From Desulfobacteraceae bacterium (GTDB lineage: Bacteria; Desulfobacterota; Desulfobacteria; Desulfobacterales; BuS5): 9,630 nt of DNA. Position numbers and translations under genes: made by a program. Location of the stretch: assembly GCA_030592105.1 (NCBI GenBank), contig JAUVKE010000070.1, forward strand, positions 1 to 9,630, given 5' to 3'. The notes beneath the pieces were generated by a model. The model saw nothing but the letters and a program-made list of their open reading frames with translations, did not search any database and had not been told where the DNA came from. This document shows positions 1 through 9,630 of this stretch, one piece after another; position 1 is the first letter of the stretch; each line of letters starts with the position of its first letter.

Positions 1-144
1 AAAGCTTCAGAAGGTTACCGAATTTTCAATACCCTTGGCAGCTATATTCATCTTCATTTTGGCAGCCAGCCTGAATGTGCAATAAATTTTGCAGAGAATT
101 GCCTTGCATACAGACATGAAAGGATAATAACAGATGAAACCTGA
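1..144 (+). CDS. cbiA: Cobyrinate a,c-diamide synthase, C-terminal end (partial)
   Basis: The open frame enters from the left edge of the window and ends at TGA 142-144, giving 47 visible residues. The motif EGYRIFNTLGSYIHLHFGSQ (residues 4-23 of the visible part) matches the C-terminal end of the CbiA/CobB glutamine amidotransferase domain, where a typical form is EGY...ASYVHLHFGSNP and the His belongs to the class I amidotransferase active site. In the anaerobic pathway CbiA uses ATP and glutamine to amidate the a and c carboxylates of cobyrinate in the cytoplasm. The stop codon overlaps the cbiC start by 11 nt, so the two genes are translationally coupled. The tail after the conserved block (about 25 residues) is family-variable. 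The N-terminal ATPase domain and most of the amidotransferase domain lie outside the window, so completeness cannot be judged. Confidence 0.88.
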   Translation, partial: KASEGYRIFNTLGSYIHLHFGSQPECAINFAENCLAYRHERIITDET

Positions 145-745
145 TGAGATAGAAACTTTAAGCTTTAAAATAATTGACAAAGAAGCAGGACAACACAATT
201 TCTCACCACAGGAATGGCAAATTGTACAAAGAATGATTCATACTTCAGCCGATTTTGAATATATCGAATCAGTACGTTTTCATCCTGATGCCATATCCTG
301 TGGAATAAATGCCCTGCGTGCCGGTAAAAAAATTATTACTGATACCAATATGGCAAAAGCAGGGATTAGAAAAAGCGATCTTGAGCGATTTGGCACACAG
401 GTAAAATGTTTTATGACTGATCCTGAAATTGGACGGATTGCATTAAAAAACGGAATTACAAGAGCAAAAGCAGCTGTTGATGCAGCAATAACTGATATGC
501 AAGACGGTATTTATTTGATTGGGAATGCACCTACTGCCCTCTTACGACTTATTGAGCTGATAAAAGAAAAAAAAGCAAGCCCTGCTTTAATTATCGGACT
601 TCCAGTAGGTTTTGTAAATGCCGCAGAATCAAAAGCAGCGCTTATTGATCTAAATTACCCGTATATAACAAATAATGGAAGAAAAGGTGGTTCAAATATT
701 GCTGCAAGTGTGGTAAATGCATTGATAAAGCTTGCTTTATTATAA
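134..745 (+). CDS. cbiC: Cobalt-precorrin-8 methylmutase
   Basis: This gene encodes 203 residues, the normal CbiC/CobH length. The enzyme moves the methyl group from C11 to C12 of the corrin ring, converting cobalt-precorrin-8 to cobyrinate, the direct substrate of CbiA encoded upstream. Visible hallmarks are an N-terminal MKPDEIE...SFKIID block, the RMIHTSADFEY motif with the putative catalytic His36, TDTNMAKAGI, IGNAPTALLRL, LPVGFVNAAESK, and the C-terminal NNGRKGGSNIAASV. The ATG at 134 is chosen because GAAAGGA at 118-124 lies 9 nt upstream and the protein start fits the family. The gene overlaps the end of cbiA. A 139-nt gap to cbiD, the only real gap in this operon, follows it. Confidence 0.95.
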   Translation: MKPDEIETLSFKIIDKEAGQHNFSPQEWQIVQRMIHTSADFEYIESVRFHPDAISCGINALRAGKKIITDTNMAKAGIRKSDLERFGTQVKCFMTDPEIGRIALKNGITRAKAAVDAAITDMQDGIYLIGNAPTALLRLIELIKEKKASPALIIGLPVGFVNAAESKAALIDLNYPYITNNGRKGGSNIAASVVNALIKLALL

Positions 746-884
746 ATATATCAACGGATTTAGTGCTTTATGGAGAAGAAGTTGGTTTTATCTTCGGCCG
801 CATCATTTTTTATTATGGGTCAAAGCTTCAGGATAATAAGTCTTGTAATTATTGGAGTCATTTATTATTTAACTGGATGATTTT

Positions 885-1988
885 ATGCCTGTAAAAAAAA
901 AACTGAGAACAGGTTTTACAACTGGAACAGCAGCGGCTGCTGCTGCAAAGGGTGCCCTTTTTCTGATTTTAAACAGAAAAAAACCTTCCAGTGTTCAGAT
1001 AGAACTTTTAACTGGAGAGAAAATCAAAATTCCTGTGTATACCTGTAAATCTCAAGGCCACAATAAAGCAGAATGTATGGTTATAAAAGATGCAGGAGAT
1101 GATCCTGATATTACTCATAAAGCAAAGATCGGAGCAAGAGTCACCCTTTTTAATTATAAAAATCAAAAAAAAATATCTATTACAGGCGGAGAAGGTGTCG
1201 GGACTGTCACAAAGCCGGGGCTTGAAGTTAAGCCCGGAAAAGCTGCAATAAACCAGGGGCCTGAAAAAATGATTACCCAGGCTGTCATGGAGTCACTATG
1301 TAATGATTCAAACAAATCTGTACAAATTGAAATTTTTGTACCTGAAGGGGAAAAACTTGCTAAAAAGACATTAAATGCCAGATTAGGAATTATAGGCGGT
1401 ATATCTATTCTCGGAACCACAGGTCTTGAAAGACCGATGTCCCATGAAGCTTATATTGCAACGATTAAAGCTGCATTATCAGTTGCAAAGGCATCTAACG
1501 TAAAAAGAATAATTTTTACAACTGGCCGCAGGAGCGAAAGATTTTCCCAGGCTTTATTTAAGAATCTATCTGAAGAAGCTTTTATACAGATTGGTGATTT
1601 CTTCAAAGTATCGTTAGAAGCAGCATTAGAGAATGGTTTTAACAAGATTACTATCGCTGTTTTTTTTGGAAAAGCTGTAAAAATGGCTCAAGGCGTACCA
1701 CATACTCATGCAGCCAGGTCTGGTCTAAGTTTACAGAAACTCTCAGCCTGGTCATTTGAGGTTACAAATAATCAGGAACTTGCAGAAAAGATATTATCCG
1801 CAAATACAGCACGTCATGCATTTGATTTTATAAATACTGCTTATCCTCAAATTATATCTTATGTTGGAAAATTAATAATTAAATCTGCGAAAGTATTTAC
1901 AGGTAAAGATGTTCAAATACAAAGTATTATTTTTGATTATAGTGGCAATCTTATTTTCAATTCAGAAAAAAATAAAAAAATATTATGA
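885..1988 (+). CDS. cbiD: Cobalt-precorrin-5B C1-methyltransferase
   Basis: The product is 367 residues, the usual CbiD size. CbiD is the SAM-dependent methyltransferase that methylates C1 of cobalt-precorrin-5B to give cobalt-precorrin-6A. It is specific to the anaerobic branch and is not related to the tetrapyrrole methylase fold of CbiE, CbiF and CbiH. Diagnostic blocks are LRTGFTTGT followed by an alanine run (residues 7-21), ITGGEGVGTVTKPGLEVKPG (from residue 99) followed by AAINQGP, TTGLERPMSHEAY (from residue 178) and TTGRRSE. The N-terminal motif begins only seven residues in, which supports the ATG at 885. The ribosome binding site is weak (a GGAT at 875-878). The stop overlaps the cbiET start by 4 nt (ATGA), so the genes are coupled. 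Confidence 0.95.
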   Translation: MPVKKKLRTGFTTGTAAAAAAKGALFLILNRKKPSSVQIELLTGEKIKIPVYTCKSQGHNKAECMVIKDAGDDPDITHKAKIGARVTLFNYKNQKKISITGGEGVGTVTKPGLEVKPGKAAINQGPEKMITQAVMESLCNDSNKSVQIEIFVPEGEKLAKKTLNARLGIIGGISILGTTGLERPMSHEAYIATIKAALSVAKASNVKRIIFTTGRRSERFSQALFKNLSEEAFIQIGDFFKVSLEAALENGFNKITIAVFFGKAVKMAQGVPHTHAARSGLSLQKLSAWSFEVTNNQELAEKILSANTARHAFDFINTAYPQIISYVGKLIIKSAKVFTGKDVQIQSIIFDYSGNLIFNSEKNKKIL

Positions 1989-3205
1989 AACCAGTATCTA
2001 TAATAGGAATGGGGATTTCCCCCGACGATTTAACCGCAAAATATCTAAAATTAATTAAGCAGGCTGATATCCTTGTAGGAGGAAAACGGCATCTTGATTT
2101 TTTCAAGGATTATCCGGCAGCCCAAAAAAAAATCATCGGAAAAATTGATGAAACAGTCAAATTCATAAAAAAACGAATGGAGAACGAATTTATCGTGGTG
2201 CTTGCATCTGGTGATCCGTTATTTTTCGGCATCGGTTCCTTGCTAATTAAATCGCTTGGTCACAAAAATGTTGTAGTATATCCTAATATTTCGGCAATTG
2301 CAGCCGCATTCTCCCGTATTAAAGAGCCCTGGCAGGATATTCATGTTCTCAGCATGCACGGCAGAGATAATGAGCATTTGCTCTTAAAAGCACTGACAAC
2401 CAAAGATACGATTGCAGTATTTACGGATCCTGACAAAAACCCTTCCTGGCTTGCAAAATTTCTTCTTGAAAATGGTATAACTGATTTCAATATATCTGTT
2501 TTTGAACAACTTGGAGCGCCTTCTGAGCGTATTGACCAGTATAATCTCGTCAGGGCTGCTGAAATGAAGTTTGCCGAACCGAATCTCGCAGTATTAAAGC
2601 GGATACCTTCCCAGCCTGAAAAAACAGAGAATATTTACCTTGGGATGCCGGATAATTACTATGAACGCCAAAATGAAGTGGTCACTAAACCGGAGGTAAG
2701 AGTTGTTACACTTTCCAAACTTCGTCTTTCACCAGACCATATTATGTGGGATCTTGGAGCAGGAAGCGGCTCCATCTCTATAGAAGCTTCATTTTTTATA
2801 AAAAATGGAAAAATATTTGCAGTTGAGCAAAAACCTGAAAGAATAGAGCAAATCAAAAACAACAAAAACCGCTTTAATGTGAATAATCTGGAAATAATAA
2901 ATGCCACTCTCCCTTCCGGTCTCGACAAACTCCCTCTGCCTGATCGTATATTTATAGGTGGAGGCGGCAGAGAGCTTAAAACAATAATTAGAGCCGCAGG
3001 TAAATATTTAAAAAAGAACGGAATCATAGTAATAAATACGGTTCTTATACAAAACCTGGAAGCTGCTCTTGATACACTAAAACAGATCGGATTACAAACA
3101 GAAGTTATCCAGATTCAAATCAACCGTAGCAAAGATATGCCGTGGGGACAACGACTTAATGCACAAAATCCTGTCTGGATTATTTCCGGAAGAAAGGAGT
3201 TTTAA
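1985..3205 (+). CDS. cbiET: Fused precorrin-6Y C5,15-methyltransferase, CbiE-CbiT
   Basis: This is a 406-residue fusion of two enzymes that are separate in many anaerobes. Residues 1 to about 210 are CbiE, a tetrapyrrole-methylase-fold enzyme that methylates C5; the fold's GDP motif is ASGDPLFFGIG at 74-84. After a short linker, residues of about 220-406 are CbiT, a Rossmann SAM methyltransferase that methylates C15 and decarboxylates the ring-C acetate. CbiT shows motif I WDLGAGSGSISIEA at 255-268 and the DRIFIGGGG block at 320-328. The whole is co-linear with aerobic CobL, but the neighbouring cbiD and cbiG place it in the cobalt-early pathway. The ATG overlaps the cbiD stop by 4 nt. Its TAA shares one base with the cbiF ATG. 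Confidence 0.95.
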   Translation: MKPVSIIGMGISPDDLTAKYLKLIKQADILVGGKRHLDFFKDYPAAQKKIIGKIDETVKFIKKRMENEFIVVLASGDPLFFGIGSLLIKSLGHKNVVVYPNISAIAAAFSRIKEPWQDIHVLSMHGRDNEHLLLKALTTKDTIAVFTDPDKNPSWLAKFLLENGITDFNISVFEQLGAPSERIDQYNLVRAAEMKFAEPNLAVLKRIPSQPEKTENIYLGMPDNYYERQNEVVTKPEVRVVTLSKLRLSPDHIMWDLGAGSGSISIEASFFIKNGKIFAVEQKPERIEQIKNNKNRFNVNNLEIINATLPSGLDKLPLPDRIFIGGGGRELKTIIRAAGKYLKKNGIIVINTVLIQNLEAALDTLKQIGLQTEVIQIQINRSKDMPWGQRLNAQNPVWIISGRKEF

Positions 3206-3969
3206 TGATAATAACTCATCCTGTTATATTTGCCGGTGCAGGCCCGGGGGATCCTGAATTAATCACTGTAAAAGCTCAAAATGCCTTAAAAGAAGCGGAT
3301 CTCGTTATTTATGCAGGGTCACTGGTTCCTGAAGCAGTATTAAAGTGGACCAAACCTGAAACAACAAAATCAAACAGCGCTTCTTTGCATCTTGAAGAAA
3401 TAATTACAGCAATGGCAAATGCTTATAAAAAAGGCCAGAAAGTTGTGCGTCTTCATACTGGCGATCCAAGTCTGTATGGTGCTATTTTTGAACAAATGGT
3501 GGAATTAAAAAAAAAATCGATACCATATACGGTTATTCCTGGAGTAACCGCTGCCTTTGCTGCGGCTGCGTCCATGGGTATTGAATACACTCTTCCTGAA
3601 ATATCCCAGACCCTGATTTTAACCCGAATGGCCGGTCGAACACCTGTTCCTGAAACTGAAAAACTGGAGTTGCTTGCAAGCCATCAAAGCTCAATGGCGA
3701 TTTATCTGAGTATGTCACTTATTGATGATGTGGAAAAGATACTGAAAAAAGCTTATGGGGCAGATGCAGTCTGCGCAATAGCATTTAAAGTAAGTCAACC
3801 TGAAGAAAAGATTATATACACACATCTGAACGAACTAACTGATACAGTCAGGAAAAATAAAATTACCAGCCATGCTCTTCTCATTGTTGGAAAAATTCTC
3901 AAATTAAACCAAATAGAAGCAAAATCAAAGCTTTACGATAAAAATTTTTCCCATGGATATCGAAAATGA
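3205..3969 (+). CDS. cbiF: Cobalt-precorrin-4 C11-methyltransferase
   Basis: The 254-residue product is a single tetrapyrrole methylase domain that transfers a methyl group from SAM to C11 of cobalt-precorrin-4. The sequence shows the N-terminal FAGAGPGDPELITVKAQNAL loop, the YAGSLVPEAVL block typical of CbiF/CobM, RLHTGDPSLYGAI (from residue 82) with the GDP substrate-site motif, PGVTAAFAAAASMGIEYTLPE, and QTLILTRMAGRTPVPE. These last two blocks separate it from CbiH and CbiE. An AGGAG at 3195-3199, inside the end of cbiET, serves as its ribosome binding site. The stop overlaps the cbiG start by 4 nt (ATGA). Confidence 0.95.
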   Translation: MIITHPVIFAGAGPGDPELITVKAQNALKEADLVIYAGSLVPEAVLKWTKPETTKSNSASLHLEEIITAMANAYKKGQKVVRLHTGDPSLYGAIFEQMVELKKKSIPYTVIPGVTAAFAAAASMGIEYTLPEISQTLILTRMAGRTPVPETEKLELLASHQSSMAIYLSMSLIDDVEKILKKAYGADAVCAIAFKVSQPEEKIIYTHLNELTDTVRKNKITSHALLIVGKILKLNQIEAKSKLYDKNFSHGYRK

Positions 3970-5030
3970 TAAAGCCGGATAGAAAAAACGGACTGGCAAT
4001 ATGGGCATTAACACCAAAAGGCGCTAACCTTGCCGCAAAATTAGCCAAAGGATTGCAAAATGTAGACCTGCACTTTTCTTCCAATTTAAAAAAATCTGCT
4101 GCCAGTGCTTTGAGATTCAACAAATTATCCGATGCATTACAAAATTACTTTAATAAATATCACGGGCACATCTTTATCATGTCTGCTGGCATAGTGGTTC
4201 GTATGATAGCACCACTGATCAAAAGTAAAATCAATGACCCTGCGGTTGTAGTGGTAGATGAAGCAGGACAGCATGCTGTCAGTCTTCTTTCCGGTCATAT
4301 TGGCGGCGCCAATGATCTTGCAAAAAAAGTCGCCCTGTTAATCGGGGCAGATCCTGTAATAACTACTGCCACAGATGTAAACGATCTTCCTGCCATTGAT
4401 ATTTGGGCTCAAGAAAAAGGCCTTTTTATTGAAAATCCAGAGGCAATAAAAAAGATCAATATGGCCTTTTTAACTGACCAAAAAATAAATATTTATGATC
4501 CATCAGGCTTTTTACACAAGTCTGAAACCATATCGAATTTTCTGCAGGATTCAGATTCTAAAGAAGAACAGTTCAATAAAGATACTCCTGGCATTTATAT
4601 TAACCATTTAAAGACTGATCTTTATCCAAATATTCTGGTATTGCGCCCCAAAGTTTTAGTTGCCGGCATTGGATGCAATCGTAATACAACCATGGAAGAG
4701 ATAATCTTATTCCTTGACGATGTGTTAAATCGCTTTTCCCTGGCATCAGGAAGCCTGGCGTGGATTGCAAGCATAGATTTAAAAAAAGATGAATCAGGAC
4801 TGATAGCTCTTGCAAAAAAGCTTGAACTCCCATTAAAATTTTTTGACAAAAAAGAATTAAACAGTGTAAAAAATATTAAAACACCATCTGTTATGGTTGA
4901 AAAACATATAGGAGTAACTAGCGTATGCGAAGCAGCAGCAATACTGGCAGCAAAACAGGGGAAACTGATTGTGCCCAAACAATCGACCAGGAACGTAACC
5001 GTGGCCATTGCCAAAACAGCCTCTATGTAG
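3966..5030 (+). CDS. cbiG: Cobalt-precorrin-5A hydrolase
   Basis: The 354-residue product is of normal CbiG length. It opens the delta-lactone of cobalt-precorrin-5A and releases acetaldehyde (the lost C20 unit), making cobalt-precorrin-5B for CbiD. The N-terminal domain shows LAIWALTPKGANLA, MSAGIVVRMIAPLI (from residue 72), VVVVDEAGQHAVSLLSGHIG followed by GAN, and TTATDVNDLPAIDIWA. After a variable middle of about 60 residues, the C-terminal CobE/GbiG-like domain starts at VAGIGCNRNTT (from residue 232) and includes ASIDLKKDESGL, TPSVMVEKHIGVTSVCEAAA, and the terminal GKLIVPKQSTRNVTVAIAK. The last 106 nt also encode the start of cbiH in the -1 frame. CbiG-CbiH fusions are known in other organisms, in line with the close linkage here. 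Confidence 0.94.
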   Translation: MIKPDRKNGLAIWALTPKGANLAAKLAKGLQNVDLHFSSNLKKSAASALRFNKLSDALQNYFNKYHGHIFIMSAGIVVRMIAPLIKSKINDPAVVVVDEAGQHAVSLLSGHIGGANDLAKKVALLIGADPVITTATDVNDLPAIDIWAQEKGLFIENPEAIKKINMAFLTDQKINIYDPSGFLHKSETISNFLQDSDSKEEQFNKDTPGIYINHLKTDLYPNILVLRPKVLVAGIGCNRNTTMEEIILFLDDVLNRFSLASGSLAWIASIDLKKDESGLIALAKKLELPLKFFDKKELNSVKNIKTPSVMVEKHIGVTSVCEAAAILAAKQGKLIVPKQSTRNVTVAIAKTASM

Positions 5031-5815
5031 TAGGCATAGGTCCAGGCAGCCTGGATCATATGTCAAGGCGGGCATATGAGGTTCTTGAAATGGTTGATAC
5101 CATTGCCGGTTATACTACTTATACAGATCTGATACACCCTTTAATAAAGAATAAAAATATTATCAGCACATCAATGACAAAAGAAGTTGAAAGGGTTACG
5201 GCAGCAATTGATATCGCTCTTAAAGGAAAACCATGTGCTGTAATTTCGAGCGGAGATCCTGGAATTTACGCTATGGCTGCCCTTGTCCTGGAAGTCTGTC
5301 AGACAAAAAAAATTACGGTTGCCTCCCCTACCCTGTCGAATATTGCGCTATCAAGTAAATCCTATCTTACTGTTGAAATCGTGCCAGGCATACCAGCTCT
5401 ATGCTCAGGCGCTGCTCTTTTAGGAGCCCCTTTGTCTCATGATTTTGCAGCTGTAAGCTTAAGCGATCTGTTGACTCCCTGGGATTTAATTGAGCAGCGT
5501 ATTAAAGCAGCGGCCAAAGCCGATTTTGTGATAGTTATATATAATCCCAAAAGTAAAAAAAGAAACCAGCATCTTGAAAAAGCTCAAAAAATTATCCTCA
5601 GATACAGAGATAAAAATACGCCAGTCGGCATAGTAACCGGTGCCATGAGAAAAAATCAGGATGTCCAGATTACAACCCTTGAAAATCTTCACTCTGCACA
5701 TGTAAATATGCAAACTACAGTATTTATAGGGAGCAAAGCCTCGACAGTTTATAGTAACTATATGGTTACTCCAAGAGGATATTCAAGCAAATATGCATTT
5801 GACTGCAAAAAATAA
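4925..5815 (+). CDS. cbiH: Cobalt-precorrin-3 C17-methyltransferase
   Basis: This tetrapyrrole methylase (296 residues from this start) methylates C17 with ring contraction. Motifs are SLYVVGIGPGSLDHMSRRAY (from residue 33), ISSGDPGIYAMA (from about 107), EIVPGIPALCSGAALLGAPL, HDFAAVSLSDLLTPW, ADFVIVIYNPKSKKR, TPVGIVTGAMR, and TTVFIGSKAS. The family normally starts just before SLYVVGIGPG, but no ATG, GTG or TTG exists there in frame. The ATG at 4925 has a good GGAG at 4911-4914, 10 nt upstream, so I take it as the start despite the 106-nt overlap with cbiG and the resulting extension of about 32 residues. A stretch of about 18 residues before EIVPG looks like a lineage-specific insertion, and PGIPAL replaces the common PGVTA. 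It is the last gene of the operon and converges on yedF 29 nt away. I see no clear terminator hairpin between them. Confidence 0.9.
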   Translation: MRSSSNTGSKTGETDCAQTIDQERNRGHCQNSLYVVGIGPGSLDHMSRRAYEVLEMVDTIAGYTTYTDLIHPLIKNKNIISTSMTKEVERVTAAIDIALKGKPCAVISSGDPGIYAMAALVLEVCQTKKITVASPTLSNIALSSKSYLTVEIVPGIPALCSGAALLGAPLSHDFAAVSLSDLLTPWDLIEQRIKAAAKADFVIVIYNPKSKKRNQHLEKAQKIILRYRDKNTPVGIVTGAMRKNQDVQITTLENLHSAHVNMQTTVFIGSKASTVYSNYMVTPRGYSSKYAFDCKK

Positions 5816-5844: not shown

Positions 5845-6441
5845 TTAAATATTGATTATCTTATCTGCTATTTGCATTGCTGTGACGATGTCCAGCATAT
5901 TGGTGGTTTCACCAACCTGCTTTTTATCAAGCAAATTAAAATGGGTCAGGCATGTCCCACAGACCAGAATACAAAGTCCATTCTTTTCATATTTTTTTAA
6001 AACTGATAGTACCTTAGAATTTTCAATAGTAAGCTTAACTCCATTGTTAACAAAAACCAGGCGCCACAATTCAGAACCCATCTCATTTAACGTCTTTATG
6101 AAGCTGATCATGAGTTTTAAGCCAAGTTTATCATCACCATGGCCCATGCAATCCGTAGACAGCATCACCATAATTTTTTTTGTATCATTTTTTGACTCTT
6201 TATCAGAAGAGATTTCAGAGGAAATACTCCCTTTCCGTTTTCCAATAATATGAAAATCAACTCCTTTATTTTTAACAGAAGTTTCAAAATTCCGAGATTC
6301 TAAAAACCGACAAACATTTTGTTTTGAAGCATCATTATCAACTATGACTCTGATAAGATTCGGATTTATTTCTTCAATAACTGCTTTTGTCTGTAATACC
6401 GGAGCCGGACAGGCTAACCCCCTGACATCTATTTCTTTCAT
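5845..6441 (-). CDS. yedF: Selenium-metabolism-associated protein YedF (TusA-like + DsrE-like)
   Basis: The 198-residue protein has two domains. Residues 1 to about 70 are a TusA/SirA-type sulfurtransferase domain with the signature RGLACPAPVLQTK (Cys11 in the CPxP motif). Residues of about 89-198 are DsrE-like, starting KIMVMLSTDCMGHGDDKLG, with ILVCGTCLTHF (Cys157, Cys161, Cys164) and VGETTNMLDI. The linker at about 70-88 is charged and low complexity. This architecture matches the family called selenium metabolism protein YedF, found next to selenium-utilisation genes; its biochemical role (S or Se carrier or transfer) is not firmly known. The start is set by the conserved MKEIDVRG opening; the ribosome binding site is weak (AAAGAGAGA on the minus strand). 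It converges on the cbi operon. Its expected neighbours upstream are broken remnants, so its pathway context here may be incomplete. Confidence 0.9.
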   Translation of the reverse strand: MKEIDVRGLACPAPVLQTKAVIEEINPNLIRVIVDNDASKQNVCRFLESRNFETSVKNKGVDFHIIGKRKGSISSEISSDKESKNDTKKIMVMLSTDCMGHGDDKLGLKLMISFIKTLNEMGSELWRLVFVNNGVKLTIENSKVLSVLKKYEKNGLCILVCGTCLTHFNLLDKKQVGETTNMLDIVTAMQIADKIINI

Positions 6442-6462: not shown

Positions 6463-6615
6463 TTAGAAGTACATTAAATTATTGGCAGACACAAAACTTT
6501 TTGTACAGTACATGCCTGACAACAAAAAACAATTATTTTCAGCTGTCAGCAATGCATCATGTGCCGCAAGATCTGAGCCTAATGTTTCCCATATGTTTTT
6601 GTAATCTGCGCTCAT
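6463..6615 (-). pseudogene. N-terminal remnant of YjiM-type double-cubane-cluster reductase
   Basis: The ATG at 6615-6613 has a proper upstream AAAGGAAA on the minus strand. Its first 25 codons read MSADYKNIWETLGSDLAAHD then ALLTA, which closely resembles the start of the 2-hydroxyacyl-CoA dehydratase-like reductase family (YjiM; double-cubane-cluster anaerobic reductases), where a [K/Y]-x-IW-x-x-LG-x-DLxxHDxLL opening is typical. After that the frame continues for 25 residues of unrelated sequence and stops at 6463-6465, whereas the full protein is about 380-430 residues. The natural reading is a deletion that removed nearly the whole gene. A longer in-frame start at 6669 exists but has no family resemblance. 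YjiM-type genes sit beside yedF in selenium-associated clusters, which supports the assignment. The match is short and made by eye. Confidence 0.55.
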
Positions 6616-6620
6616 ATTTT

Positions 6621-6752
6621 TTATTTTCCTTTTGTTGCTTTCCGGTCTGTTTCTCGATCTGGTACACAATTTGATAAAATCACCGCGGCATTAAGGTCAT
6701 TCATAAATTTTTCCATATCCAGATCATATTTTGTTGAACAAGCTACTTGAGC
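6621..6752 (-). pseudogene. C-terminal gene remnant, possibly DUF1858-like domain
   Basis: On the minus strand a 43-codon open stretch runs from just after an in-frame TAA (at 6755-6753) to TAA 6623-6621. It includes CSTKYDLDMEKFMNDLNAAV. That phrase resembles the last helices of DUF1858 / hybrid-cluster-associated redox-disulfide domains, where forms like A..YG[IL]D.[ED].[LFM]..LNAA are common. There is an internal ATG (6702-6700, MEKFMND) but no convincing ribosome binding site. The stretch ends 5 nt before the YjiM remnant, in the same orientation, as the 3' end of an upstream operon partner would. I treat it as a decayed gene end; the family match is weak and made from memory. Confidence 0.28.
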
Positions 6753-6822
6753 TTATATCAAATATCCAGGTTAACAGCGTCACGTAAGCACGTAAGCAGC
6801 AAGTAAACATTATAACAAAAAT

Positions 6823-6850
6823 TTAATACCATCCTAATAGAATCGTAATA
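6823..6850 (+). promoter_or_regulatory. Three TTAATA-like hexamers at 11-bp spacing (PhoB/OmpR-type operator, site 1)
   Basis: TTAATA (6823-6828), CTAATA (6834-6839) and GTAATA (6845-6850) repeat with exact 11-bp spacing, separated by CCATC and GAATC. Direct repeats with an 11-bp period are the usual footprint of tandem PhoB/PhoP/OmpR-family winged-helix regulators. The set lies 60 bp upstream of the TTG start of the small membrane-protein gene, with a possible -10 (CATTAT, 6867-6872) in between. The same arrangement recurs at 7230-7257. Which regulator binds is an inference. Confidence 0.5.
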
Positions 6851-6910
6851 TTAATGTGAAATAAAACATTATGTTCAATTATTCAAGCGTTTAATAAGGA
6901 TAATAAAAAA

Positions 6911-7063
6911 TTGAAAGAGATACTTTTTATAATTTCCGCACTTTTTTTTGTAGTGGGTTTAATCGTTTTAAGGCTCAAATTCATCAAAGGTCTAAACCCT
7001 GATGCTGAGCTGTTAATTGAATTGTTAAGAGGTATCAGTGTGGATAAAAAAACAAAATTTTAA
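6911..7063 (+). CDS. Small single-pass membrane protein, 50 residues
   Basis: This short gene starts with TTG at 6911 and has AAGGA at 6896-6900, 10 nt upstream, so initiation is well supported despite the rare start codon. Residues 4-20 (ILFIISALFFVVGLIVL) form one strong transmembrane helix after a short KE start. The following RLKFIKG is positively charged, predicting a cytoplasmic C-terminal side (residues 21-50, containing LNPDAELLIELLRGISVDKK, which could form an amphipathic helix). I do not recognise the family. It stands alone, divergent from the yedF remnants, and is preceded by three 11-bp-spaced TTAATA-like repeats that also occur before the PHP gene. A membrane-associated accessory or stress-response role is possible, but nothing in the sequence proves it. 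Coding status rests on the start signal and the coherent membrane-protein composition. Confidence 0.6.
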   Translation: MKEILFIISALFFVVGLIVLRLKFIKGLNPDAELLIELLRGISVDKKTKF

Positions 7064-7076
7064 AATAATAGATCAA

Positions 7077-7222
7077 TAGTGTCTGATTAGAATCTTGCAC
7101 AGGGACGTTTCGTATTTTTGGCAAAGCAAACTTAGGAATTCAAGAAATTTATTCGGTAATAGCGGGAAAAAACAACTAAACTTCCCGTATTTTCGTTCAC
7201 TCAATTTCCTAAACGGTCACTA
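7077..7222. mobile_element. Putative 146-bp inverted-repeat element (MITE-like or IS remnant)
   Basis: The left end TAGTGTCTGATTAG (7077-7090) and the reverse complement of the right end, TAGTGACCGTTTAG (from 7209-7222), match at 11 of 14 positions. Internally, CTTAGGAATT (7130-7139) and AATTTCCTAA (7203-7212) are also nearly complementary. CGGGAA (7163-7168) pairs with TTCCCG (7182-7187) around a 13-nt loop. The segment has no coding capacity. Ends of the TAGTGTC... kind occur in several DDE insertion sequences, so it may be a non-autonomous copy or a solo remnant. I see no target-site duplication, which keeps confidence low. Confidence 0.33.
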
Positions 7223-7229
7223 CTGATTA

Positions 7230-7257
7230 TTAATAAAAGATTAATCTTATCTTAATA
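7230..7257 (+). promoter_or_regulatory. Three TTAATA-like hexamers at 11-bp spacing (PhoB/OmpR-type operator, site 2)
   Basis: TTAATA (7230-7235), TTAATC (7241-7246) and TTAATA (7252-7257) repeat with exact 11-bp spacing, as in the set at 6823-6850. A plausible -10 (TATTTA, 7267-7272) follows at about the distance seen in activator-dependent Pho-type promoters that lack a good -35. A 12-bp palindrome, AAGATTAATCTT (7237-7248), lies across the middle unit but is probably a by-product of the repeats. The next gene downstream is the PHP-domain gene. The regulator identity (PhoB, or another member of the family) is inferred from spacing only. Confidence 0.5.
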
Positions 7258-7435
7258 AACATTCTTTATTTAGTACTTGGTACTTGAGCTTATTGACTCT
7301 TTCCATATCAAGCTAAGGAATTAGGAAAACAGGCTGTTTGCAGTTTATTATTACAAAGCGCTCTCTAAAAAAAATCAGAATTTTAAAAAAAAAGCGGGGA
7401 GTAATCAATAAAGAATAAAAACGGAGTATTTGCAT

Positions 7436-8338
7436 ATGAAAGGCATATTATTAAAGGCGGATCTTCATGTTCACTCCAAATATTCGAAACGGCCTTCAGA
7501 ATGGATTCTCAGAAAAATAGGCTGTTCCGAGAGCTATACTGAACCTGAAAATCTCTATGCACTGGCGCGGAACAGAGGGATGGACCTTGTCACGATTACC
7601 GATCATAATACCTTAGCCGGAAGTCTGGAAATCGCCCACCTGGAAAACACCTTTTTAAGTGAAGAGATCACAACATATTTTCCTGAGGACCGTTGCAAAA
7701 TCCATGTCCTAGCATACGATATAACTGAAAAGCAGCACGAGGATATTTCTATTTTCAGGAGTAATATATTTGAACTCATCAAATATCTTACTCATGAAAA
7801 GATCATTTATGCTCTGGCCCATCCGCTCTTCTCAATAAATGACAGGTTGACTATTAAACATCTGGAGCAGACCGTTCTTCTGTTTAATAATTTTGAAATA
7901 AACGGTTCACGTGACGATCAGCAGAACTCTGTTCTTCAAAAAATTTTGAAAAATTTAACCCGGGCAGATATCGATTATCTCTCCAATAAATATGATTTAG
8001 AGCCTGTGGGTCATGAACCCTGGAACAAAACATTGACAGCGGGATCGGATGATCACTCCTCACTTTATATTGCCACAACCTATACTGAGGTAGAAGGAGT
8101 TTCCTCGGTAAAAGAATTTATGGCCGGGATAGAGCAAAACAGGGCTAAGGTAAATACTGTTGCACCCAGCCCCCGAACTCTTGCTCATCATTTATGCAGC
8201 ATTGCCTATCAGTTTTATTCCAACAAATTTGAACTCGACCGTTATGTCGATAAGGAACTGCTCATAAAGTTTATTGATCATACACTGATCCATTTTTCTG
8301 AAAAAAAACAGGGCTTGGAAAACGGATCCGAAAAATAG
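7436..8338 (+). CDS. PHP-domain metallohydrolase (probable N-terminal half of a PHP-glycosyltransferase protein)
   Basis: The 300-residue product shows PHP-family metal ligands in order: ADLHVHSKYS (His11, His13), VTITDHNTL, ALAHPLF, and a late GSDDH. PHP domains are metal-dependent phosphoesterases (histidinol phosphatase, polymerase-associated and others); the substrate here is unknown. I choose ATG 7436 because GGAG at 7423-7426 lies 9 nt upstream; an in-frame TTG at 7430 is too close to it. The frame ends at TAG 8336-8338. Just before, codons GAA AAA AAA form a slippery heptamer A AAA AAA at 8302-8308, and the -1 frame opens at 8302 and leads straight into the glycosyltransferase. The gene is preceded by three 11-bp TTAATA repeats. 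A phosphoesterase linked to a lipid- or polysaccharide-type GT4 enzyme suggests work on an activated sugar or glycolipid intermediate, but that is inference. Confidence 0.85.
   Translation: MKGILLKADLHVHSKYSKRPSEWILRKIGCSESYTEPENLYALARNRGMDLVTITDHNTLAGSLEIAHLENTFLSEEITTYFPEDRCKIHVLAYDITEKQHEDISIFRSNIFELIKYLTHEKIIYALAHPLFSINDRLTIKHLEQTVLLFNNFEINGSRDDQQNSVLQKILKNLTRADIDYLSNKYDLEPVGHEPWNKTLTAGSDDHSSLYIATTYTEVEGVSSVKEFMAGIEQNRAKVNTVAPSPRTLAHHLCSIAYQFYSNKFELDRYVDKELLIKFIDHTLIHFSEKKQGLENGSEK
8301..8338 (+). other. A8 tract / -1 frameshift point between PHP and glycosyltransferase frames
   Basis: The PHP frame reads TCT GAA AAA AAA CAG here, so bases 8302-8308 form A AAA AAA in the register needed for -1 tandem slippage. 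The -1 frame is closed by TGA at 8299-8301 and open from 8302. It reads TGLGKRIRKIVNSRMSGYLF directly into the glycosyltransferase. The zero frame ends 28 nt later. There is no internal Shine-Dalgarno stimulator upstream and only a tiny CGGATCCG palindrome (8323-8330) downstream, so a one-base loss in the tract (mutation or sequencing error) is at least as likely as programmed frameshifting. Confidence 0.5.
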
Positions 8339-8349
8339 TAAACAGCAGA

Positions 8350-9549
8350 ATGTCCGGGTACCTTTTCAAATCAATGCCCGAGGCAATGCGGGATATATTC
8401 CGAAAAAACGCTGCCAAAATTATCCTTGAAAGTCCAAGTATGAGAGAATTGTTAAAAGATTCCAATCATAATCTCGAAGAGATGAACAAGGCATGGTTTC
8501 AATTTGCAAATCAGATATCTGAGGAGGTTCTCAAACAGTTTGCCGATTCAATTATCAAAAGTCTTAACAGTGCAAATCTGTTTAATATTTTTCATACTAT
8601 CGGTTCTGTTGGATCACTTTATACCATGCTTGCCCCTTATTTTGTCTCATACAATCTGTTTGTCAAAAACCGGCAGTTCTGCAATTATTGCCTGGAACAT
8701 TTCAGCAGTGGCAGGAAACCAACCCGCCTGTCACAACGAAGCGCGCTCATGCAAATAAAAAAGCCAAGGCTTAATATAGCCCATTTTACTGACACATTCT
8801 ATGATATAAACGGCGTTGCCATGACACTCAAAATGCAGATGAAAATGGCTATCAAAAATAAAAAACAGCTCACAATCATTACCTGCGTTCCCGAATCAGA
8901 AATTTTAGAGCCGCCTGCCACAGCAAGGCACGAACGGACAAGTGTAATAAATTTTATGCCTGCGGGTATATTTGAAATGCCGGAGTATCCGGATATGAAA
9001 CTCTATTATCCATCATTATTAAAGATGCTTGATTACTGTTATGAACAGCAATTCAGTCATATTCATTCCGCAACTCCGGGACCAATCGGCCTGGTTGCGC
9101 TTGCCATTGCCAGTATATTGAAAATTCCTATTTATGGCACCTATCACACAGCCCTGCCTCAGTATGTAAATCATCTCACTGATGACCAATTCATGGAGGA
9201 TATTATGTGGAAATATCTTATCTGGTACTATAACCAGATGGACGCGCTGTACGTACCATCCATAGCCACTGGCAATGAACTTAAAAAAAAAGGCATCCCT
9301 AAAGAAAAGATAAGGTTTTACCCACGGGGTACTGATATTGAGCGTTTTCATCCTTCCAAAAGAAACGGGTTCTTCAGCAAAAAATTCAACGTAAGCGAGA
9401 ACGGATTCAAACTCCTTTATGTGGGCCGCATATCCAGGGAAAAGAATCTTTCCGATCTCGTGGATACATGCAAGAGTATGGCAGAGATCAGAAACGATTT
9501 CCATCTTATCATAGTGGGCAGCGACCCCTATCTTGTATATTGCAAGTAA
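8350..9549 (+). pseudogene. GT4-family glycosyltransferase, 5'-split and 3'-truncated by an insertion
   Basis: From the ATG at 8350 the frame encodes 399 residues. Residues 1 to about 137 are a helical region with a hydrophobic patch (LFNIFHTIGSVGSLYTMLAP, from about 77) that is not part of the GT fold and probably continues the linker of the PHP protein. The GT-B acceptor domain starts at RLNIAHFTDTFYDINGVA (from 140), where DTF...NGVA is typical of GT4 lipid and mannan glycosyltransferases. It continues through HIHSATPGPIG, GTYHTALP and the interdomain FYPRGTDIERFHP. The donor domain begins with LLYVGRISREKN (Lys365) and stops at LIIVGSDPYL. The E-x7-E motif and the last 100 or more residues are missing because the frame runs into an IS21-like end at 9541. 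No ribosome binding site precedes 8350. The product should be inactive. Confidence 0.8.
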
Positions 9550-9630
9550 AAAGTGTACCACTGTGTTAATTGAAAAGTATACCAGTTAATAAAATATTGT
9601 TATGCTTTTTTGTTCGCTTTATCCTCCTCC
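9541..9630. mobile_element. IS21-family insertion sequence, terminal end (partial)
   Basis: The glycosyltransferase frame ends abruptly at a sequence beginning TGCAAGTAAAAAGTGTACCA (9541-9560). AAAAAGTGTACCACT (9548-9562) recurs 24 bp later as GAAAAGTATACCAGT (9572-9586), with 12 of 15 matches. Multiple spaced copies of an AAAAGTGTACCA-type motif next to a TG tip are typical of IS21-family ends, where the IstA transposase binds. On the minus strand a frame enters from the right edge (EEDKANKKA then TAA at 9602-9600) and could be the tail of an element-encoded protein. The exact tip, the target duplication and the transposase genes are outside the window or uncertain. Confidence 0.62.

Follow-up and report, generated by a model that had tools for sequence, protein, structure and literature searches.

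Direct repeats as the target of PhoB are established in E. coli and have been mapped in D. vulgaris: the E. coli Pho box is described as CTGTCAT repeats, and that of D. vulgaris (DVU1083) as 6-bp repeats, (c/t)GT(n)AC, separated by 4-bp spacers (PMC3333781). In marine bacteria, PlcP-Agt gene pairs are described, together with Pho boxes before the plcP clusters (PMC4796936), and in Oleidesulfovibrio alaskensis an agt mutant (Dde_3613) is reported to be without glycolipids under phosphate limitation (PMC5193443). For small proteins, the E. coli protein YoaI, which according to a meeting report has 34 residues, is regulated by PhoR-PhoB and activates EnvZ-OmpR (PMC11853020), may serve as a precedent for a Pho-controlled small protein acting on another system.

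The locus described here shares the plan of these boxes. Both of its repeat sets consist, like the E. coli and D. vulgaris boxes as described in PMC3333781, of direct 6–7-bp repeats about 10–11 bp apart, and the boxes found here are, like those described, placed before phosphate transport and phoU genes. The letters differ, being YTAAYA-like, with three or four consecutive units, and the targets differ in that they include a gene for a PHP phosphoesterase domain with a GT4 glycosyltransferase (PHP-GT4) and a gene for a small membrane protein.

The window, that is, the whole stretch of 9,630 nucleotides that was analysed, reads from left to right: cobalamin genes, a TusA-DsrE gene on the minus strand, set 1, a 50-residue ORF, set 2, a PHP ORF and a GT4 ORF (Table 1). 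The cobalamin-biosynthesis ORF run (134–5815) holds a CbiC and a tetrapyrrole methylase recognized by Pfam, as well as CbiD, CbiE/T, CbiF and CbiG look-alikes recognized by eye. The single ORF at 5845–6441 (minus strand) has a TusA domain followed by a DsrE/F-like domain (Pfam), which we take to be the domain make-up of YedF-like proteins, and the short ORF at 6463–6669 (minus strand), which has no Pfam match, is possibly the start of a broken gene. An Rfam scan gave no match at gathering scores.

Table 1. Coordinates of the predicted Pho boxes and associated features in the window.
Feature	Position	Strand	Basis
Set 1, predicted Pho box, four hexamers ATAACA/TTAATA/CTAATA/GTAATA at 11-bp steps	6812..6850	+	sequence and pstS-derived matrix
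AAGGA, likely ribosome-binding site of the small gene, 10 bases 5' of the TTG start	6896..6900	+	sequence; inference
50-residue protein, TTG start, one hydrophobic span (by eye), core R..P-N/D-A-E-L-L	6911..7063	+	family alignment
Set 2, predicted Pho box, three hexamers TTAATA/TTAATC/TTAATA at 11-bp steps, 178 bases 5' of the PHP start	7230..7257	+	sequence and pstS-derived matrix
PHP phosphoesterase domain, N-terminal part of the PHP-GT4 gene	7436..8338	+	
GT4 glycosyltransferase part, frame differs from the PHP part	8350..9549	+	Pfam Glyco_transf_4 E 3.8e-19
Repeat-like sequence ending the GT4 gene, probably a mobile-element end	9535..9630	.	first 51 bases 98% identical to a stretch of G004

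The initial annotation had reported two sets of three TTAATA-like hexamers at 11-bp intervals, and all six are found where it placed them: TTAATA at 6823, CTAATA at 6834 and GTAATA at 6845 in set 1, and TTAATA at 7230, TTAATC at 7241 and TTAATA at 7252 in set 2, the steps being exactly 11 bp throughout. A fourth in-step unit, ATAACA at 6812, brings set 1 to four units. Both sets are oriented rightward, toward the 50-residue ORF and the PHP/GT4 genes. With up to three mismatches allowed, the pattern TTAATA-n5-TTAATA-n5-TTAATA has four matches in the window, which overlap or fall on both strands and are confined to the two set locations, against 0.14 expected (200 shuffles, none reaching four); with up to two mismatches and spacings of 8–10 and 12–14 bp, there is no match within the stretch 6670–7435.

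That stretch is 70% A+T, and the repeats might be a chance arrangement of AT-rich intergenic DNA. Such triplets are, however, not as common in random AT-rich sequence as a chance origin would have it, a point on which the initial annotation had been prepared to give way: among 4000 random sequences with the dinucleotide make-up of 6670–7435, at least one forward set (up to two mismatches) occurs in 0.275%, and two separate sets occur in 0/4000. We also scanned the window with a weight matrix built from 14 boxes found ahead of pstS genes in relatives (the box of L156, which is the same as that of L154, was left out). Set 1 is the best match at 19.87, above the largest score of 18.0 among 60 random whole windows, and is followed by an overlapping register of set 1 (13.80) and then by set 2 (13.75). 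The score of set 2 is just over the 99th percentile of its null (13.54; largest 17.23; 500 random sequences for the 760-bp intergenic stretch), and set 2 by itself is only moderately significant, which leaves some room for chance, as does a count of loose matches (up to two mismatches) over two whole genomes, where the pattern shows no excess over its reversed form (20 versus 26 in G001, the closest relative, and 19 versus 22 in G009). Our argument is built on best matches and period controls, not on these loose genome-wide counts, and since two sets appear in none of the random sequences and period 11 stands out ahead of PHP-GT4, pstS and the small genes (see below), we regard chance as extremely improbable.

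The upstream regions of relatives were scored by their best YTAAYA triplet with a threshold of 15 of 18, a rule written after viewing the boxes of L001, L002 and L010; the pstS regions are independent of the boxes from which the rule was drawn. Upstream of pstS, 15/30 regions reach the score at period 11 compared with 0–4 at other periods, the sample being the 30 best pstS-family matches, taken from matches in 41/46 genomes, and including four regions whose pstS starts are doubtful (L153, L158, L162 and L178). The same is true of five of the eight phoB upstream regions, and of phoU and phoB in Desulfobacter latus; the phoB regions of G002, G010 and G163 fall below the score, that of G163 being only 107 bases long, and in G288 a phoB score of 15 occurs at period 13 as well.

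The genome scan that the initial annotation proposed was run in relatives, and its outcome is divided: while the loose counts given above do not exceed the control, the sole exact triplet match in the whole genome of G001 stands ahead of a PhoB-like and PhoR-like pair. The best NCBIfam model for this PhoB-like regulator is PhoB, at 251 bits, below the cut-off of 296. Sites with one mismatch in G001 include the PHP-GT4 box as well as the sites C121 and C281, at which no pho gene was found within the 3 kb examined. One contig of G001 carries, in transcription order, a cation transporter, a box with a truncated PHP copy, an 807-residue protein, phosphatidylserine decarboxylase, a box, PHP-GT4, a radical SAM gene, an LGT-like gene, a box, a porin, pstS, pstC and pstA, the pst genes exceeding curated cut-offs. 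The 807-residue protein (L180 11453–13873, minus strand) is matched by no model of Pfam or NCBIfam; its homologues in L261 and L255 lie, respectively, next to phosphatidylserine decarboxylase and PHP-GT4 and near a small gene.

Regulators of the OmpR family other than PhoB bind direct repeats too, and the boxes could belong to one of these, likewise with 11-bp repeats. Such an assignment would suit the letters, which differ from the Pho boxes of E. coli and D. vulgaris as given in PMC3333781, and the scores of the PhoB-like proteins, which lie under the cut-off of the PhoB model. What argues for PhoB is the company the motif keeps: the same motif stands ahead of phoB, pstS, phoU and OlsF-like genes, a set that PhoB fits best, and we consider another regulator very unlikely. 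The suggestion of PhoB-type repeats in the initial annotation thus gains support from relatives, where the same motif is found ahead of the pst, pho and phoB genes of the lineage, and both repeat sets of the window are very probably Pho boxes, as judged from motif, period and placement.

Ahead of PHP-GT4, 25/80 regions score at least 15 at period 11, the rest falling below the score, in comparison with 0–2 at periods 8–10 and 12–15. The 80 regions are 79 loci and the window, which was given 700 rather than 350 bases; L062 was excluded as too short. On the reverse strand of these regions, period 11 is also in excess (8/80 versus 0–1 at four other periods). When only intergenic DNA is considered, boxes are found ahead of PHP-GT4 in 23/61 cases (61/79 loci passed the length filters; 38/61 regions are below the threshold score) and ahead of other genes of the same loci in 23/302 (Fisher p = 1.5e-8), while periods 9, 10, 12 and 13 give 0/61 for PHP-GT4 and 1–2/302 for the other genes. 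Ten of the 23 boxed other genes were inspected: two are phoU, one encodes a PstS-type binding protein, two are OlsF-like, and the remaining five, which are neither pho nor lipid-synthase genes, encode a DksA/TraR-type protein, a polyketide-cyclase-like protein, a chemotaxis receptor, a kinase with a receiver domain and a PAS protein. The box excess ahead of other genes may thus partly reflect further Pho targets. The OlsF-like ornithine-lipid synthase genes of L011 (3059–4921, minus strand) and L047 (3889–5688, minus strand) are divergent from PHP-GT4, each gene having its own box; they score 417 and 396 bits with NCBIfam, below the cut-off of 620.

The bacterium of the window is close to Desulfobacteraceae genomes: the PHP protein of the window is 86% identical to that of L001 (a Grevelingen Desulfobacteraceae genome) and to that of L002 (contig EthSRB1). 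The initial annotation had spoken of a GT4 enzyme with a phosphoesterase partner. Both are indeed present, but relatives carry them as one fused gene, in L001 a single 838-residue ORF, and in the window this gene is broken. Its PHP and GT4 parts lie in different frames, with one gap in the DNA alignment of 8201–8450 to L001, and its GT4 homology to L001 stops at about 9534, in the repeat-like sequence. The bases 9535–9585 recur in one of eight genomes searched and are probably the end of a mobile element cutting the GT4 gene; a comparison of the window end with plasmids gave no match. The PHP-GT4 copy of the window may be dead, or the frame break may be an assembly error; as the gene is broken, set 2 may be driving a dead gene here.

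The PHP part shows the PHP fold, with D9, H11, H13, D56, H57, E77, H129 and D205 invariant in an alignment of 20; these His/Asp/Glu residues presumably include the metal ligands of the family. No Pfam PHP model matches the PHP part of the window at E 0.001, and viral contigs hold no relative of the PHP protein. The GT4 part has, by Pfam, a GT4 domain, as would be expected of an Agt-type synthase. For the fusion, the best NCBIfam model is N-acetylglucosaminyl phosphatidylglycerol synthase, at 157 bits of 480, and the matches listed, all far below their cut-offs, include both diacylglycerol glucosyltransferases and exopolysaccharide enzymes. Because GT4 families are broad and exopolysaccharide enzymes are among these matches, PHP-GT4 could under phosphate control make a surface polysaccharide or a lipopolysaccharide sugar rather than a glycolipid. 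The best model, the diacylglycerol glucosyltransferases among the matches and the neighbouring genes, which include phosphatidylserine decarboxylase, LGT-like and OlsF-like genes, point the other way, as does the agt phenotype reported for O. alaskensis (PMC5193443), and we think a polysaccharide product unlikely.

The same fusion is found in O. alaskensis as P0132, a full-length homologue with 412/833 aligned positions identical to L001 (among the best 120 of 3208 matches). P0132 is probably agt, the phosphate-limitation glycolipid synthase (Dde_3613), an identity that we infer rather than match by locus tag, and Dde_3613 is then a probable PHP-GT4 fusion. From the accounts in PMC5193443 and PMC4796936, O. 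alaskensis Agt, the PlcP-Agt pairs and PHP-GT4 have in common a glycosyltransferase and a phosphoesterase partner tied to phosphate shortage; in contrast to the PlcP-Agt pairs, the partner in the relatives described here is a PHP domain, fused to GT4 in one chain. The link to phosphate starvation and replacement by glycolipids, at which the initial annotation had guessed, is supported by pstSCA standing in line with PHP-GT4 in the closest relative and by a family that includes the probable O. alaskensis agt. Keyword searches of the open-access literature found no paper on a PHP domain with a glycosyltransferase and phosphate, or on PlcP/Agt in sulphate reducers; the sole study of these genes in a sulphate reducer that we found there deals with O. 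alaskensis.

The other unit concerns the 50-residue ORF behind set 1, which, judged from profile searches and alignment, is a member of a family of small membrane proteins that has no Pfam or NCBIfam model and is new here. Its members, found by six-frame profile searches, have in common a short N-terminus, one hydrophobic span (by eye) and a PNAELL-like core (alignment of 14). A four-sequence profile (the window, L009, L070 and L032) found the family at E 1e-4 or lower in 18/291 genomes of the order, among them two that had supplied seeds, and a 14-member profile in 23/389 genomes of the class and 7/395 of the phylum (E 0.001). Against curated models, no match of the 14 members fell below E 0.015 in Pfam or 0.019 in NCBIfam, and a search of 5.8 billion proteins, which needs shared 5-residue words, gave no candidate for the 50-residue ORF. 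At the aligned start position, 14/30 genes (window included) have TTG, 15 have ATG and one has TTA. The family was probably overlooked by annotation because its genes are short and often start with TTG. A keyword search of the open-access literature for small membrane proteins of the Pho regulon in sulphate reducers found no paper.

Boxes scoring at least 15 stand ahead of 10/30 small genes at period 11 versus 0–1 at other periods, the other 20 genes scoring below 15; three of the 30 are G227 copies and one is the gene of the window. With PHP-GT4, this makes two groups of orthologues upstream of which the repeats are conserved, a lack of conservation being the second observation that the initial annotation would have held against itself. 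The neighbourhoods agree: strong pst, pho or PHP-GT4 matches are found in 15/20 small-gene regions (4.8–19 kb) and in 0/20 control stretches (17 kb, taken at fixed positions from six genomes), with bit-score limits set after part of these neighbourhoods had been viewed. The count draws on 20 of the 28 genomes in which a small gene was matched, leaving out G010 and G029 (the seeds' own), G034, G171, G206, G282, G589 and G742; two of the 15 positives depend on weak PstS-like matches (L253 and L256), and L260, which has the same length as L033 (4786), is apparently the contig of L033, the twin of a seed, and without L260 the count is 14/19. In G002, G306, G288, G238 and G283, less than 2 kb separates the small gene from the phoR 3' end. 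In Desulfoferrobacter (L009), a relative of 48 residues comes after PHP-GT4, and others adjoin PHP-GT4 in L070 and L032.

Two further loci show the range of arrangements. L244 has three small-gene copies within about 8 kb (near 7355, 9982 and 15225); one copy has a stop within its match, and two, which lie 5–13 kb from pstSCA, are followed by a pstS-like gene. Ahead of the small gene of L070, three TTGTCA-like hexamers at 11-bp steps (8647–8674) are of the E. coli Pho box type; these escape scoring by the YTAAYA rule.

Boxes resembling set 1 are found both ahead of small genes in G002, G227 and G289 and ahead of PHP-GT4 in L001 and L002, whose boxes are closer to set 1 than to set 2. The small-gene boxes of G227 and G289 and the PHP-GT4 boxes of L001 and L002 are alike even in some of their flank, which suggests a shared promoter ancestry; the window is without that flank. 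L001 also has, at 1668–2314 and upstream of its full PHP-GT4 gene, a partly duplicated promoter and gene, made up of a second box and, behind it, a truncated PHP copy and a remnant of the small ORF. By the same token, set 1 and the 50-residue ORF could be a rearrangement relic, in which a second copy of the PHP-GT4 promoter happens to be followed by an open frame: set 1 resembles the L001 and L002 boxes, the truncated copy of L001 has its own box and small-ORF remnant, and the PHP-GT4 gene of the window is itself broken. For a chance frame one would, however, hardly expect relatives in other genera that share the PNAELL core and have a similar span, many of them beside pho genes and some with the same box, and we judge a relic to be highly improbable.

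Our preferred reading, in which we place considerable confidence, is that low phosphate activates the small gene through set 1 and PHP-GT4 through set 2. On phosphate shortage, PhoR would phosphorylate PhoB, which would then bind head to tail along the 11-bp direct repeats and turn on two separate rightward transcription units. From set 2 would come PHP-GT4, an Agt-type enzyme expected to make phosphorus-free glycolipids in place of phospholipids, and from set 1 a 50-residue single-pass membrane protein, most likely tuning PhoR, the Pst transporter or lipid enzymes. The small family as proposed here would resemble YoaI in being tiny, in being membrane-bound, as YoaI is by the account in PMC11853020, and in being under PhoR-PhoB, a likeness of description and not of sequence; in contrast to YoaI as described there, it adjoins phoBR, pst and lipid genes.

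A wider proposal, which we put forward tentatively and at somewhat less than even odds, is that the Desulfobacterota have a previously undescribed family of PhoB-controlled small membrane proteins acting on PhoR, Pst or lipid enzymes, and that PHP-GT4 is a single-chain counterpart of PlcP-Agt, the PHP domain stripping the phospholipid head group and GT4 glycosylating the diacylglycerol. That one protein might here do what PlcP-Agt does in two is, by analogy with those pairs, our boldest suggestion. The box itself can serve as a motif with which to search for the Pho regulon in the Desulfobacterales; it ties PHP-GT4 to that regulon and adds to it, we believe, a family of small membrane proteins.
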